Source: a virus
Direction: 5' to 3' (one strand)
Length of the DNA: 47,628 bases
Virus record (IMG/VR): IMGVR_UViG_3300033141_004399
Location: 1 to 47,628 of that record
Shown here: one piece after another, positions 2,946 through 22,417 of the stretch
Numbering within the stretch: the first letter of the stretch is position 1
How the letters are laid out: every line of letters begins with the position of its first letter
Program-made: the position numbers and the translations under genes
Notes under the pieces: generated by a model
The model's input: the letters and a program-made list of their open reading frames with translations, nothing else
Told to the model about the DNA's origin: nothing
Databases searched by the model: none

Positions 2946-4022
2946 TTAAGCATCGGTGATATAGAATATTTCAACATATATCAGCCCCGTATCAACTAAA
3001 ACTGTCATATCTTCATTAGCTCCAGTATTACTGTTTCTCAGACGAACCACAAGATCGTTTGATTCTGTTCGCACATTGCCGATTAAATCAGTAGTGCTAT
3101 AATTACCGTATATTGTTCCTAAAGAGTAAATAGCGTTTCCAGAAAGTCCAGAAGCTTCAATTTTTAAAGTCTGTCCATCGGAACTAAGAGTAAAATGTCC
3201 TGTCGTTGCACCTTTGGCAATATTATCGGTCTCCGCTATGGCATCCCCATTCCAACGGGAATACAATTGACACTTCAGAGTGCTAGCATTAGTTCCGTTA
3301 TCTATTCTTAGATATGAGGCTCTCAGTATCCTTCCCCCTGTGCCATCTCCACCGATGACACCTGCTCCCCCTGCCTTTATTGTTCCAGAGGCAGTAATAT
3401 TGCCATTAACATCTAGAGCCTCACTGGGAGCTTTCCCAATACCGACATTGCCTGCACTATCTATCCTAACTCTTTCATCAAATCCACCAGAACCTCTTGT
3501 CCAAAAGACCAACTCACCATAATCATCTGTATGACTTGTTATTTGTGCACCTATTCCGCATACCGCATCAGCACTTGCTCCATCGCTAAAACTTAACCTT
3601 ACATAATTATTATCAGTTGAATCCGTGTTAACTAGCTGTAATTGACCAAACTGTCCGCCAAATGTAGTTAGATTACTACTACCTTCAATTACTACTACTT
3701 CTCTATCAGTGCTCACCACATGTAGCATCTCACTTGGACTATTTGTTCCTATCCCTACCTTCCCATCGCTCCCCTGCACGAAGAGCGCATTGGGCTGACC
3801 CACTCCTTCTATTCTGAAATCCTTGTCTGCACCTGACTCGTTGATGGTAACCTGCCCGTCGAACGAGTAGTTCCCGCTCCCGTCGTTTATCCAGTTCTCT
3901 ATCTCATATATGGCATCCTCGATATAGTCCATCCAGTCCGCCTGAACGATGTCGCCAGTCTGCCTGTCCGTCTGGAAGACCGTGTCTATTGATGAAGGAA
4001 AGCTCGATTGTGTTTTAGCCAT
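2946..4022 (-). CDS. Tail fibre / adhesin-like protein
   Basis: This 358-residue protein carries the repeated shaft phrases of phage tail fibres: KVGIGTNSPSEMLHV, NVGIGKAPSEALDVNG and ITASGTIKAGG. This is the region that precedes chaperone-type C-termini in many fibres, but no S74 peptidase motif is visible. The N-terminus (to about residue 60) is polar and probably attaches to the tail, and the C-terminal 140 residues are a beta-rich head. It lies between the distal tail protein and the hub, as expected for a host-recognition fibre. Confidence 0.75.
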   Translation of the reverse strand: MAKTQSSFPSSIDTVFQTDRQTGDIVQADWMDYIEDAIYEIENWINDGSGNYSFDGQVTINESGADKDFRIEGVGQPNALFVQGSDGKVGIGTNSPSEMLHVVSTDREVVVIEGSSNLTTFGGQFGQLQLVNTDSTDNNYVRLSFSDGASADAVCGIGAQITSHTDDYGELVFWTRGSGGFDERVRIDSAGNVGIGKAPSEALDVNGNITASGTIKAGGAGVIGGDGTGGRILRASYLRIDNGTNASTLKCQLYSRWNGDAIAETDNIAKGATTGHFTLSSDGQTLKIEASGLSGNAIYSLGTIYGNYSTTDLIGNVRTESNDLVVRLRNSNTGANEDMTVLVDTGLIYVEIFYITDA

Positions 4023-4049: not shown

Positions 4050-4835
4050 TCATAGCCATCTTTTCCTGAAGACGAAGTCGCACTGACAAGTCCCCACCGT
4101 GCCCGTCAGAGTCAGCGTGATGGAGTTATCCCCGCTTGCCAGCTTCAGGAACGAACCCGTAAAATTGCTTATGGTGGACGTGCCGTTCTTCTTGACCGTG
4201 CCTTCCTCGCAGTCCACTTCTATCTCGTCGCCATCGCCTATTGCCGTGCTTACCTCGAAATACTTGTTTCCGTCCTGAGCATTGGCTACCTTGAGTTTAG
4301 TGAGGGATGTGGACGCTCCGCCTGTGAAGGTGATGACAGGGTAGACCTCTATGTCTCCGCCGTTGGTAACCGTGTATGTGTGAGGGGAAGAGGTTATGCC
4401 TGTTTCACTGTCGGTCGTCTCGTCCTTGTAATACCTGAATGGGTCGCTACATTGGAAATCAATCCAGACCTCGACTGCCTCAGTCATCCCCAGGAATGTA
4501 GGCTCGAAGCTCAGGCACTCCACGTAGTAGAATTCGTCCGTGTATTGCGAACCAGGATAGAGACGCAAGTCCTGCGTGTAACACTGTTTTTTCATCTCTT
4601 TTAGGTTAGCAAGCAGAGTAGCCCCGTAGGTGGTGTTTATGGTAGTAGCGTTGAAAATTCCGTGAACGGTGATGATGCGGGGCTTGACCATTTCATCACC
4701 TATGAGCACAGCACCATTCTGGTATGCCCGCATTTCCGTGTCCAGCCTCTTTTCCCAGCTCTCCTCAACGAGCTCACATCCAGAGGGAAACTCGTAAACT
4801 ACCGTGTTGCTTGAGCTTTTTAGTTGCATAGCCAT
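4050..4835 (-). CDS. Distal tail protein (Dit-like)
   Basis: This 261-residue protein lies directly downstream of the tape measure gene, the normal siphovirus position for Dit. The N-terminal half has the family pattern of a short beta start, KPRIITVHG, and a segment ending FDFQCSDP-like (here WIDFQCSDPFRYY). The C-terminal half is a galectin-like beta sandwich (VYPVITFTGGAS). Dit forms the ring joining tail tube and tip. It ends TGA; the tape measure gene stops 2 bases upstream of its start. Confidence 0.8.
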   Translation of the reverse strand: MAMQLKSSSNTVVYEFPSGCELVEESWEKRLDTEMRAYQNGAVLIGDEMVKPRIITVHGIFNATTINTTYGATLLANLKEMKKQCYTQDLRLYPGSQYTDEFYYVECLSFEPTFLGMTEAVEVWIDFQCSDPFRYYKDETTDSETGITSSPHTYTVTNGGDIEVYPVITFTGGASTSLTKLKVANAQDGNKYFEVSTAIGDGDEIEVDCEEGTVKKNGTSTISNFTGSFLKLASGDNSITLTLTGTVGTCQCDFVFRKRWL

Positions 4836-18514: not shown

Positions 18515-19741
18515 CTATGCTCTTGCAGCCAGTGTTACATACGGGCTCAGAGTATCGCTGGAATATCTGGGAGTCAGGGCTGACTTCCACCAGGGCTGTC
18601 CGTCGACTCTGAACACAAACCTGAATGCGGTCTGGTCATAGTCGAACTTCAGGTGTATACTGGTAGCAGTCTGTATTCCCTGCCCTCTCTTTTGTCCCAA
18701 CAGATACTCAGACCAGTCAACGAAGAAGATGTCCCCCTTGTCCCCGAGCTTCTGGCAATGCTCGGTGAAAATAAGAGGCTTGCCTAACAGGGTGTCGAAG
18801 GGCTGTCCAGCCGCCTGGTTCGCAGGCAGGTAAACAGGCACTCCACCAGTCCCCACAGCCAGGCTCATTGTAGCCAGCTGAGAGAAGGTGTCGTCGTTTG
18901 CCAGCCATACTGCATTCTTCCTGTTGGCGCTGGGCATCCTGGCATACATCTTCACTATGTTCTCGAAGACTATCGTGTCAGCTGCCTGTCCTGACTCTTT
19001 GGACACCGTCACCAGTGCAGGAGCGTTTATTAGCCCGAGGGGCTGTCCTGCTCCCGTCCCGTTGATTAGTATGTCATCCATAGTCCAGGCAAAAGCCTCG
19101 GTAAACATCTTGTTCAGAAGAGGCTCCAGGCTGATCGGGGAGTCCTGCAGAATCTCGTCGGAGGAATAAGCCAGCCCGATGAGCTTCTTGAGAACCAATG
19201 TGACCTTCCCGAATTTGGGCTTAGAAGAGGTCTTACTGCCCTCCTCGTCCGTCCAGTAGAGCTTGACCGCACCGTGCAGATACCCGCTAGACCTGTCGGC
19301 GTCATCTACATAGGGTATCCCTATGGAGTTGGTGGCCATTGGTATCAAGGTGCAGCGGTTCATAAAGTTGGAAAGCTCCAGAGCTTTGGACAGGAGTTGA
19401 GCCCTGAATTCCTCAGGAATCAAGTATCCACCTTCTGTTGCACTTCCCTCTTCCAGTCCGCTTCCAGCAGCCTTCTTCTCCCACTCTATGAGCCTTTTAT
19501 CAGGGTTGCGAGGGTTGACTTCTGCTTTGGCAACAGCCTGGGCAAAGTCTGCGAAGTTGACGAACCCGCCTTTAGGGTCGGATTCTTTCCCGTCGCCTTC
19601 CCCCACTATCTCGGTCTTCCCGGCAGGCTTTTTCAGCTCGTCGAGTTGCTTCTGCATCTCCTCGGCAAACTTCTCATTGCCAGCTTTGATAGCCTCTGAG
19701 ATAGTGTCTTTCAAAAGGGCTTGAAGTTCCTCTACCTTCAT
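18515..19741 (-). CDS. Major capsid protein, HK97 fold
   Basis: This 408-residue protein has an N-terminal helical delta-like domain (to about 90) and the HK97 core, with GGYLIPEEFRAQLLSKALE, a P-domain helix with DSPISLEPLLNKMFTEAFAW, NGTGAGQPLGLINA, and the C-terminal strand ending in LTPRYSSDTLSPYVTLAARA. The protease gene lies upstream, and the delta domain is expected to be cut off during maturation. The gene is isolated between two intrinsic terminators, unlike its neighbours. Confidence 0.95.
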   Translation of the reverse strand: MKVEELQALLKDTISEAIKAGNEKFAEEMQKQLDELKKPAGKTEIVGEGDGKESDPKGGFVNFADFAQAVAKAEVNPRNPDKRLIEWEKKAAGSGLEEGSATEGGYLIPEEFRAQLLSKALELSNFMNRCTLIPMATNSIGIPYVDDADRSSGYLHGAVKLYWTDEEGSKTSSKPKFGKVTLVLKKLIGLAYSSDEILQDSPISLEPLLNKMFTEAFAWTMDDILINGTGAGQPLGLINAPALVTVSKESGQAADTIVFENIVKMYARMPSANRKNAVWLANDDTFSQLATMSLAVGTGGVPVYLPANQAAGQPFDTLLGKPLIFTEHCQKLGDKGDIFFVDWSEYLLGQKRGQGIQTATSIHLKFDYDQTAFRFVFRVDGQPWWKSALTPRYSSDTLSPYVTLAARA

Positions 19742-19891
19742 CTATCATTCACATCCTTTTTTTTCTGATTGAGAAAGACCAGCCTACTCTCTGGCATCTC
19801 CGACAAGTTTTCCGCCGCCTGACATCGCCTTCCCGTGTCTCCAGCGGTTACTCGCCCATCTGATACCTGCAATTTCGGTCTCGCTTCCGTG
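19742..19891 (-). promoter_or_regulatory. Leader region of capsid gene
   Basis: About 150 bases lie between an upstream intrinsic terminator and the capsid ATG. A message made only here would need its own promoter. I see no good sigma70 -35/-10 pair, so a phage-specific promoter or read-through is possible. An open frame through it (to 20005) is interrupted by the terminator and is not called. Confidence 0.35.
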
Positions 19892-19918
19892 AAAAAGCCC
19901 CGCCGAATAAGCGAGGCT
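19892..19918 (-). terminator. Intrinsic terminator upstream of capsid gene
   Basis: On the minus strand AGCCTCGC, a 7-base loop and GCGGGGCT form an 8-bp stem with one GU pair, followed by TTTTT. It lies about 100 bases after the tmRNA-like element and about 150 bases before the capsid start. Confidence 0.75.
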
Positions 19919-20021
19919 AGTATGCAATTTTGGATAATTGCCTTTTACATAAAGAAACTGTAAAAACCGTAAAACAGGCTTTACAATTTTCCGAAATATT
20001 GTCAATTATGGTTGACGATAC

Positions 20022-20100
20022 TGGTGGAGCTGACGGGATTCGAACCCGTGTGTTGCCGTTGAACCTGGTCAACTGTCGCAATCTGTAGCCTTTCAGCCCC
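20022..20100 (-). ncRNA. Miniature tmRNA-like / tRNA-like element
   Basis: The 79-nt stretch begins GGGGCTG and ends CAGCTCC-A-CCA. These pair as a 7-bp acceptor stem with one GU, and CCA is encoded. A perfect T arm (ACGGG TTCGAAT CCCGT) precedes the acceptor. GGGGCTGA at the 5' end and CAGCTCCACCA at the 3' end are the classic ends of bacterial tmRNA; GATTGCGACAG resembles the tmRNA 5' D-loop signature. No normal anticodon loop is present: a GTTGA/TCAAC stem caps a 6-base loop. It may be a tmRNA reduced to its tRNA-like domain, or a remnant of an attachment site in a host ssrA gene. Confidence 0.6.
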
Positions 20101-20256
20101 ATTATGTCTCAGCCAGCTACCCAGTGCCTCGTCAGGCACTGCCTGCCAGTTGAACCCACCAGAGCCTAGGTTGCGGATTCTAACCCTACTGGCGGAGGTC
20201 AATACCCGAACCGCCCCCTGGACAGTCCGCCCTCACTGGCTGTCTTATGTGAAAAA
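20101..20256 (-). other. Structured non-coding stretch upstream of tmRNA-like element
   Basis: No gene is convincing here. On the minus strand there is a perfect hairpin CAGTGCC-6-GGCACTG (20122-20141) and a GGCGG/CCGCC pair (20191-20195 with 20211-20215). Several T-arm-like phrases occur (GGTTAGAATCC, GGGTTCAACTGG) but do not fold into a tRNA. Together with the element downstream it may form one longer RNA. Confidence 0.4.
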
Positions 20257-20457
20257 CTACCTTTCCAAGTATTTCTTCAGTCCTACTTTTTTCCAACACT
20301 CGTTGCAGAATTGAATATTTTTGAGAGTCGTCCAAGACTCTGCTACCTCAAAATCCTCGTTGTTTTCCAGCGTCTCTCTGTTAATTTCAATGGAATAGTA
20401 GGACTCTTTACTTTCGTTTATTTCCTTGCCGCATTCATCACAATGTATCTTATACAT
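20257..20457 (-). CDS. Small zinc-ribbon protein
   Basis: This 66-residue protein (MYKIHCDECGKEINESKE...) has CxxC near the start and FCNECWKK near the end, a four-Cys zinc site. The ATG at 20457 has GGAG 7 bases upstream; a longer TTG start at 20472 is less likely. It sits between the protease gene and the tmRNA-like element. Function unknown. Confidence 0.7.
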   Translation of the reverse strand: MYKIHCDECGKEINESKESYYSIEINRETLENNEDFEVAESWTTLKNIQFCNECWKKVGLKKYLER

Positions 20458-20461
20458 ATAT

Positions 20462-22417
20462 TTACTCCACAATTCCTCTTGCCTTATCTATCTCCCTCTG
20501 CATATTCTTCCTGAGCTCGCCGAGGGCATCGTTCATCATCTTGCGGGCTATCTGAGTGAGCTCTTCTTTGGTGATGTGTATCTCCTCACCGCTTTCTTCC
20601 TTGTCTTTCTTGTCTTCCCATTCTATCTCTATATCGTCTTTCGCATCAGCCGATTCCGTTCCCTTTTCTGGCTCAGGCTTCTCGGATGCCTTGAGTAGAG
20701 CATTCAGAGCTTCGACAGCCTTGTTCATCTGGGTTATGCAGTCCTCTATGAGCTTCCTGTTCTTAGCGGAGAGAACCCGCCCCTCTTTTAGCTCGGCAAT
20801 CTCATTCTGGAGGTTCTCCAGCTTCTCCAGGAGTTGCGGGTAGACCTCTTTCGTCCCGTATACCTCGGGAAACAGTTTCTCCAGCTCGTCCTCCGTGTAT
20901 TCCCTGAATTCGGGGGGCTCTTTGTCAAATTGTTTATAGTGCTTTACAAGATGGTTATATACGCCCTTTCTGTCTTTGTCGGATATGTCGACTCCACCAC
21001 GCCCGCCGAGCAGGGCAACCATAGCTGCAGCCACACCTCTCCACACTACAGCGTGCCCTTTTGCCTTGTGGTGCGGCAATTTATATGAGGATTTGATGTC
21101 GGGATTCTCAGAGTCAAACCACGCACACATCACTTTGAGGTCTGATATTTCAGCCTCCCTTACCTCTCTCGGCCCGTCCCACTTCTCATCCTCAGGAGCT
21201 TTTGGAGTCTCTTTGAACGGTATAACTCCCTTAATCTCATTTTCTTCCAATTCAATCACTTCCTCATTAGCTGACTCCTGGCCAGGGCCAGGTCTGGAGC
21301 TACGTCTCATCTGCCCTCCGCACTTGGGACATTTCAGTTCCCTGCAGTGCTTGTCGGAAGACATCTTGTATCCGCATTTTATACATTCGCAGTCATACTT
21401 CGCCTTTTCCAGAATAAATCCTATCTGTTCCTCCAGTGCCTCGAAGTCGGCATCGTCCATTTCTTCTATGCGTGCATTCTCCTGCCATCCGGACGCAAAG
21501 TCGCCGATTTCCTTGCCGTGCTCCTCCATCCATTTCTTCGCCTTCTCCATAGTCCACCCTTTCCTCTTGTCGAAGACGAAGGTGATTATCTTCTTGCAGT
21601 CGATGCAGTAGATACCCTTTATCCCTTGTTTCTTACTCACGGTTATCCAGCGGATTTTGTGTCCTTTGTGCTTTCCTTCCTCACCCTTCACGGGGAGCCT
21701 GATATACCTGTCGGTCTCCTCGGGCTTGAGAACCACGTCTTTAGGAGTGCACACGTCATCCACGCATTCCAGAATATCCTCTTTAAGTCTGTCTGAGGTG
21801 ATGAAGCCTTTCTCCACCATCATAGTGAGGGCTTCGGGATTGCAGGGTATGGGAACAGCCGAGTATTCCAAGAGCTCCCATTTCGTATAGATTCTTTTGG
21901 GCTCTTTCTTATCCTTGCTCTTCTCTGTGTCATTGTCTTTCCACTCTATCGGTATGAAGCCCACTGACCAGCCTCTCATTGCTGGGCCCGTTCCCGCCAC
22001 GTCCTCTGTGTAAAGTTTTCCCACTTCCTGAGCAAAAGGATGTTTTAAAAAGACAGTTTTTGCGACCAATCCTTTCTTGTCGGATTTAATCCAGATATTC
22101 TTGCCAGCAGGAAAAAGCCTATAGTCGTGGGCATAGGGAACAATGGGGTTTTTGCGGTAATTATCCAGCATAACCCCCTTAGGGTCTAACACTTCATCTG
22201 CCCTGTCTTTAGCTCCCGTGGAAATATAGCTTATAACAGACATAGTCCCTTCTTCCTCGCCAACCTCGACCTTATCCGCCACATAACCCTTCCTGACTAA
22301 TTCTACATCTTCTTCCCTTAGTTCGGGATGTTCTTCTACCAGAGTCTTCGCTCTCTCAGGATATATGTCCCGAAGTTTCAACCTCTGAGTAGTCAGTTCT
22401 TTTGTCCAATCTTTCAT
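20462..22417 (-). CDS. Prohead protease fused to zinc and scaffold-like regions
   Basis: In this 651-residue protein, residues about 45-205 are an HK97-type S78 prohead protease: VISYISTGAKDRADEVLDP, PIVPYAHDY (catalytic His97 expected) and MRGWSVGFIPIEW (Ser151 expected), then LLEYSAVPIPCNPEA. The rest is unusual: a region with CIDC, a zinc ribbon with CxC, CxxC and CPKC (about 343-368), a helical domain with LPHHKAKGHAVVWRGVAAA (about 435-490), and C-terminal coiled coils rich in Glu/Lys (520-651). The tail part may act as scaffold, since no separate scaffold gene is seen. The capsid gene follows. Confidence 0.85.
   Translation of the reverse strand: MKDWTKELTTQRLKLRDIYPERAKTLVEEHPELREEDVELVRKGYVADKVEVGEEEGTMSVISYISTGAKDRADEVLDPKGVMLDNYRKNPIVPYAHDYRLFPAGKNIWIKSDKKGLVAKTVFLKHPFAQEVGKLYTEDVAGTGPAMRGWSVGFIPIEWKDNDTEKSKDKKEPKRIYTKWELLEYSAVPIPCNPEALTMMVEKGFITSDRLKEDILECVDDVCTPKDVVLKPEETDRYIRLPVKGEEGKHKGHKIRWITVSKKQGIKGIYCIDCKKIITFVFDKRKGWTMEKAKKWMEEHGKEIGDFASGWQENARIEEMDDADFEALEEQIGFILEKAKYDCECIKCGYKMSSDKHCRELKCPKCGGQMRRSSRPGPGQESANEEVIELEENEIKGVIPFKETPKAPEDEKWDGPREVREAEISDLKVMCAWFDSENPDIKSSYKLPHHKAKGHAVVWRGVAAAMVALLGGRGGVDISDKDRKGVYNHLVKHYKQFDKEPPEFREYTEDELEKLFPEVYGTKEVYPQLLEKLENLQNEIAELKEGRVLSAKNRKLIEDCITQMNKAVEALNALLKASEKPEPEKGTESADAKDDIEIEWEDKKDKEESGEEIHITKEELTQIARKMMNDALGELRKNMQREIDKARGIVE

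Follow-up and report, generated by a model that had tools for sequence, protein, structure and literature searches.

What use does a phage have for 79 nucleotides that keep the two ends of a bacterial tmRNA and drop nearly everything between them? The question arises in a 47.6-kb virus record (the window, by which we mean the whole stretch of DNA analysed), in which Pfam recognizes terminase, portal, prohead protease and capsid genes, all on the minus strand. An earlier note had pointed to tmRNA-like ends, a perfect T arm, a 7-bp acceptor and an encoded CCA close upstream of the capsid gene; all are present, on the minus strand from 20100 to 20022, and 280 bp separate the element from the capsid start downstream. 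The features on which the argument draws are listed by window coordinate, R1 and R2 being the covariance models described with the family below.

18515..19741, minus strand: major capsid gene, downstream of the element (PF05065, E = 1.8e-55)
19896..19918, minus strand: hairpin resembling an intrinsic terminator, with a U run after it, located between element and capsid gene (stem of 9 bp, -14.7 kcal/mol, z = -2.45)
20022..20100, minus strand: mini-tmRNA gene, tRNA-like domain only, 79 nt (RF00023, R1 and R2 matches)
20022..20025, minus strand: discriminator A73 and encoded CCA (sequence)
20026..20032, minus strand: acceptor stem, 3′ strand CAGCUCC, with U70 at 20028 giving the G3:U70 alanine-identity wobble (sequence, RF00023 alignment, family conservation)
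20033..20049, minus strand: T arm ACGGG-UUCGAAU-CCCGU (sequence, RF00023 alignment)
20053..20056, minus strand: probable P2, 3′ strand GCAA (folding-energy comparison)
20058..20073, minus strand: putative P3 hairpin GUUGA-CCAGGU-UCAAC (by analogy with the family P2/P3)
20078..20081, minus strand: probable P2, 5′ strand UUGC, 4 bp with GCAA (family architecture, folding energy)
20082..20093, minus strand: D-like region AAAGGCUACAGA (R2 alignment)
20094..20100, minus strand: acceptor stem, 5′ strand GGGGCUG, with G3 at 20098 (sequence; 7 of 7 paired with 20026-20032 in the tmRNA model alignment)
20257..20457, minus strand: small CxxC..CxxC open reading frame of 66 amino acids, upstream of the element (ORF call; sub-threshold Pfam match only)
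20462..22417, minus strand: prohead protease (S78) gene, upstream of the element (PF04586, E = 2.8e-5)

The terminator-like hairpin was recovered by a second, independent script and is absent from the list of the consensus scanner. On the 5′ side of the element, positions 20103-20255 form about 150 nt of noncoding sequence rich in hairpins, including the perfect hairpin CAGTGCCTGACGAGGCACTG at 20122-20141 on the minus strand. Searched with BLASTN against isolate phages, the intergenic region (720 nt) gave no match.

Read from its sequence, the element is an RNA gene that comprises the tRNA-like domain of tmRNA alone. Its 5′ end, GGGGCTGA..., begins at 20100 (G1) and its 3′ end, ...CAGCTCCACCA, closes at 20022, the last base of the encoded CCA; both tmRNA termini are kept (GGGGCUGA at the 5′ end, ...ACGGGUUCGAAUCCCGUCAGCUCCACCA at the 3′ end), together with the 7-bp acceptor containing G3:U70, a 5-bp T arm with the loop UUCGAAU and the discriminator A. 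With Infernal and the Rfam models, as the earlier note had proposed, cmscan at a relaxed threshold aligns the tmRNA model RF00023 (positions 1-374) within 19700-20500 by deleting about 290 model positions (46.4 bits, E = 4.1e-17). This is 0.6 bit under the gathering score of 47, which is why default-threshold cmscan and ARAGORN miss the element, the latter calling neither a tRNA nor a tmRNA in it; the tRNA model RF00005 gives it 25.0 bits, short of its cut-off of 29. The suggestion that this is a 79-nt tmRNA version stripped of its tag-coding and pseudoknot parts is borne out both by that alignment and by the family models: R2, trained without the window sequence, finds the element as its sole match in the 47.6 kb (49.4 bits, E = 5.8e-9), and R1 scores it at 49.5 bits. 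Tag reading frame, resume codon and pseudoknots are absent, so the element is not a full functional tmRNA.

Within its family, the window copy is a divergent member. The D-like motif GG..UYGAC (GG..UUCGAC in the family) is replaced by GGCUACAGA, and the R2 alignment retains only the GG and GA of GG..UUCGAC; the motif is typical rather than defining because many other members vary at that site. The 'GATTGCGACAG' that had been taken for a displaced 5′ signature is there, but makes more sense as the final part of the D region followed by a short P2 and an internal loop. P2 is 4 bp long, and the class fold is not the predicted minimum, at -23.1 kcal/mol against a minimum free energy of -25.8 kcal/mol (2.7 above the optimum), with an ensemble probability of 0.002.

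The element has many relatives. A first scan of IMG/VR, with a degenerate pattern of both ends separated by a gap of 35-65 nt, matched at least 119 stretches, all but about six of which are not tRNAs by ARAGORN (a few true tRNAs fit the pattern); all pattern scans combined gave at least 129 elements differing by more than 8 nt, with lengths that cluster at 74-84 nt. Because a MAFFT alignment of the whole set misplaced P2, the covariance model R1 was built from ten members of the same spacing; it recovers 60 loci at E < 1e-7, the window among them, and sets them apart from tRNAs and full tmRNAs. R2 was built from 91 members with the window left out. A strict motif occurs in 24 viral contigs and nowhere in 257 Gb of bacterial and archaeal genomes, and on this sequence evidence the family appears to be phage-specific. 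A broader pattern applied to bacterial genomes is uninformative on how common mini-tmRNAs are there, because the matches listed are mostly 3′ ends of actinobacterial full-length tmRNAs. Two contigs of Poribacteria metagenome-assembled genomes carry mini-tmRNA-like elements at 57 bits (L140:1358-1443 and L179:4111-4196), and the genome of the first has a complete tmRNA elsewhere; one further contig, L017, has a second, weaker match at 3208-3291 (40.8 bits) besides that at 1298-1377. Neither a hidden two-alanine tag, sought in 129 relatives (a GCN-GCN-stop run occurs in 1 of 129), nor a terminator just 3′ of the element (present in 3 of 67 cases; in random stretches, 4 of 414) is a general family feature. 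In the open-licence literature, we did not find the wider mini-tmRNA family described.

The family fold consists of an acceptor stem, a T arm and a short P2/P3 hairpin with an internal loop. In the 91-member alignment, the paired fraction of cells is 95.7%, and both sides have changed in 601 cells, compared with 180 in shuffles; the covariation score is 0.725 against 0.140 for shuffles and at most 0.091 for slid controls, the latter being the safer comparison given that alignments fitted to the structure lean towards it. All seven P2 pairs covary with both sides changed, and the first set behaved similarly. To leave the acceptor unconstrained, a separate scan relied on the D-like motif plus T arm alone, and 70 distinct matches with a paired acceptor were kept. 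Pair 3 is G:U in 69 and A73 is present in all 70; pairs 1-2 are G-C in 68-69, and pairs 4, 5 and 6 vary freely in a compensatory manner. The CCA is encoded in only 15 of these 70. Whereas the U70 pattern matched at least 119 stretches, its mirror image requiring G3-C70 gave two viral matches, of which one or both are tRNAs. Together, G3:U70 and A73 make up the classical identity set for alanine; as this set is near-invariant, mini-tmRNAs have very probably been selected for alanine charging. Identity this close to perfect suggests something past titration, and points to the charged form delivered by EF-Tu as what would matter.

Eight named phages carry the element, with G3:U70 and A73 in every one, and it is unannotated in each. 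In seven Streptomyces phages (LuckySocke, GiJojo, Alone3, pSt2308, BRock, Shaeky and Tomas) it sits within a tRNA array. In Pontimonas phage phiPsal1, it lies between the prohead protease plus small open reading frames and the major capsid gene, which is the slot it has in the window; that copy scores 54.6 bits as a tmRNA and does not match the tRNA model. phiPsal1 has been described as lytic, without signs of integration, and its host possesses a tmRNA gene (PMC6106888). An SmpB gene is absent from all 23 phage records tested, window included, and among the phage isolates tested only Tomas has a full-length tmRNA above the cut-off; host factors would therefore be needed.

The position 5′ of the major capsid gene and 3′ of the prohead protease or phrog_8424 recurs in L046, L094, L104, L383, L389, L296, L318, L373, phiPsal1, the window and the group L008/L022/L063/L096/L114/L119; size and distance partly decided which proteins were scanned, so this frequency is not an unbiased one. 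Elsewhere, copies come after exonuclease genes or have helicase, terminase or integrase genes nearby, and 51 of 68 loci have no tRNA gene. The element is co-directional with its upstream gene in 54 of 65 cases, 16 of the 54 starting within 10 nt of the upstream stop. Some elements overlap the upstream stop codon, which had suggested that cleavage might produce a nonstop mRNA; we abandoned the idea, as most elements begin beyond that codon. Two contigs (L049 and L099) have a queuine tRNA-ribosyltransferase gene a few hundred nucleotides 5′ of the mini-tmRNA. Streptomyces phage Treat, the capsid of which is 53% identical to that of L008, has an array of 22 tRNAs (L277:473-2364) before a small gene and the capsid gene, where its relatives have a single mini-tmRNA.

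The same slot can be examined in L121, a relative with a capsid 65% identical to that of the window. Neither Rfam nor R1 finds a match at its slot. Positions 4685-4805, between the gene in the protease position and the capsid gene, hold an RNA of the same architecture (-36.5 kcal/mol, z = -2.76), with a 7-bp acceptor containing G3:U70, a perfect 13-bp P2, a 5-bp T arm and A73; its sequence has diverged. A structure-only descriptor matches the window element, L121 and phiPsal1 at the slot, where shuffles predict about 0.2 matches in an equal amount of sequence. The kind of RNA thus seems to have been kept there through changes of sequence and loop. In the remaining capsid relatives, L122-L129, either the slot is without an RNA of this kind or the DNA upstream is missing; in one of them, L123, the capsid gene seems by eye to be interrupted 5′ of position 2509 by a group-I-intron-like stretch with an intron open reading frame.

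Among the roles put forward earlier, the best supported is that of a decoy or regulator acting on host trans-translation. We propose, at a probability of roughly 0.6 and by analogy with published cases, that the element acts as a mimic of tmRNA, charged with alanine, and by competing for SmpB and stalled ribosomes jams the host's ribosome rescue. We infer that it is transcribed, processed and charged, binds SmpB and is inhibitory. In outline, the phage gene would supply a minimal tmRNA consisting of an acceptor stem, a T arm, a degenerate D region and a short capped P2, and no message. It would probably be transcribed together with the late head genes and trimmed like a tRNA, by RNase P and 3′ processing; host AlaRS would charge it with alanine through G3:U70 and A73; and the charged RNA, bound by EF-Tu and SmpB, would compete with host tmRNA both for SmpB and for ribosomes that have stalled. 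As it carries no message, tagging would be blocked during infection. A similar TLD-only molecule, chargeable or not, strongly inhibits tmRNA, perhaps through SmpB titration, in the accounts of PMC4131195 and PMC11915505 (citing Mao et al. 2009). Most economically, the family can be read as a phage means of shutting down or diverting trans-translation in infection by way of a tmRNA without a message. Against simple titration of SmpB, strict alanine identity would be unneeded, given that uncharged forms, too, are reported in those accounts to inhibit. A bolder version, towards which we lean less than away, is that in many phage lineages a tmRNA that is charged but carries no message serves as a dedicated infection factor: beyond acting as an SmpB sponge, this alanyl-RNA would enter stalled ribosomes and jam or untag rescue.

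Strict conservation of G3:U70 and A73, which argues that charging matters, would equally fit a helper: an alanylated mini-tmRNA with SmpB could take over the nascent chain and help to free ribosomes without adding a degradation tag, sparing phage proteins. Mitochondrial tmRNAs without a tag frame do persist alongside SmpB (PMC11915505), but no release mechanism without a stop codon is known, and the effect reported for TLD-only RNA, in the accounts cited above, is inhibition; we regard such tagless rescue as unlikely. Somewhat lower still do we place a role in cis, in which RNase P and tRNA 3′ nucleases would excise the fold from the late transcript, part the protease and capsid messages and set their ratio, leaving the freed RNA without a role. 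The recurrence of the protease-element-capsid order in several lineages and the frequent placement on the strand of the upstream gene, in some cases within 10 nt of its stop, are what such a signal would look like; yet it would not call for conserved alanine identity, other copies sit in tRNA arrays or beside exonuclease, helicase and terminase genes, and in the window a terminator-like hairpin stands between element and capsid gene. That hairpin and the very different genomic positions of relatives likewise weaken the earlier proposal of a processed 3′ end controlling the next message.

The weak P2 and missing UUCGAC of the window copy could also be signs of decay, as expected if it were a functionless ssrA fragment from an ancestor (an attP, if that ancestor integrated at ssrA, or else what deletion left of a full tmRNA); in the temperate phage Shandong1, an ssrA-like 3′ end does lie beside the integrase. 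In the window copy, however, acceptor and T arm are perfect, the L121 slot holds a diverged RNA that keeps G3:U70, A73 and a 13-bp P2, and the family is under strong constraint. The attP form of the idea, which the earlier note had listed, fares poorly on further grounds: no integrase was recognized among the window genes scanned, both tmRNA ends are kept, the neighbours are protease and capsid genes, the family has its own covarying P2/P3, and relatives occur in the lytic phiPsal1 (PMC6106888) and in tRNA arrays. We consider a remnant improbable. An unusual tRNA-Ala, or a tRNA gene that ARAGORN missed, would explain the alanine-type acceptor and the few true tRNAs that share the search pattern; it is scarcely credible against a sub-threshold tRNA score of 25.0 bits compared with 46.4 as a tmRNA, the lack of a canonical anticodon arm, and the phiPsal1 copy, which scores as a tmRNA and has no tRNA match at all.

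The TLD-only tmRNA, formerly a curiosity of the single phage DS6A, now appears as a large and strongly constrained RNA family that ARAGORN misses. Its size and constraint suggest that phages commonly manipulate ribosome rescue, and if a charged message-less tmRNA is indeed an infection factor, trans-translation would be a general target of phage counter-measures. The Streptomyces phages LuckySocke, Alone3, GiJojo, Shaeky, BRock, pSt2308 and Tomas are carriers suited to experiments on this manipulation.

Compared with standard one-piece ssrA (RF00023), the element shares both termini, the G3:U70 acceptor, the T arm, the D-like GG/GA and the position of P2; it differs in measuring 79 nt rather than about 350 nt, in having no tag frame, resume codon or pseudoknots, and in a P2 that the mini form cuts to 4-8 bp and caps with a hairpin of 3-5 bp. 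Phages also carry full-length or permuted tmRNA genes (Melnitz, PMC9004378; Tomas 97147-97421), but these keep the mRNA-like domain, and the family models give at most 38 bits on those tested against at least 43 on the mini form. The 3′-end BLAST matches in phages of Enterococcus, Mycobacterium, Stenotrophomonas, Gordonia, Xanthomonas, Acinetobacter, Alcaligenes and Tunturiibacter proved to be such full or permuted tmRNAs and not the mini form. In isolate phages of these eight hosts, tmRNA genes stand without an annotated feature (L396:182-532, L397:130-532 and L399:130-541; also the permuted L398, L400, L401, L402 and L403). Tunturiibacter phage Tunturi_4 has a gene for a peptide release factor with an RF-1 domain, possibly a ribosome-rescue factor, directly 5′ of its permuted tmRNA (L403:123-470 adjoins 475-884), and Gordonia phage GMA2 has a Pistol ribozyme (L399:851-907, 56.8 bits) beside its tRNAs and tmRNA. 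In Mycobacterium phage Shandong1, the ssrA-like 3′ end (L132:4001-4043) lies directly before the integrase, the form expected of an attP and in contrast to the mini-tmRNA.

Closer in form are the CDS-less tmRNAs of mitochondria and Mallomonadaceae plastids, which likewise have a tRNA-like domain only and no tag (PMC11915505). They differ in that the mitochondrial ones are usually permuted and in being a reduced form of the cell's own rescue RNA (PMC11915505), whereas the mini-tmRNA is a phage gene beside an intact host tmRNA. Closest is the tmRNA of mycobacteriophage DS6A, described as 'TLD only' and listed as a single case in the accounts of PMC4131195 and PMC11915505 (citing Mao et al. 2009). 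As described there, it is phage-encoded, extends little beyond the tRNA-like domain and has no tag frame, and the membership of our element in this kind rests on that published description. In contrast to a single case, the elements reported here number at least 129 distinct sequences across many phage lineages, with their alanine identity conserved.
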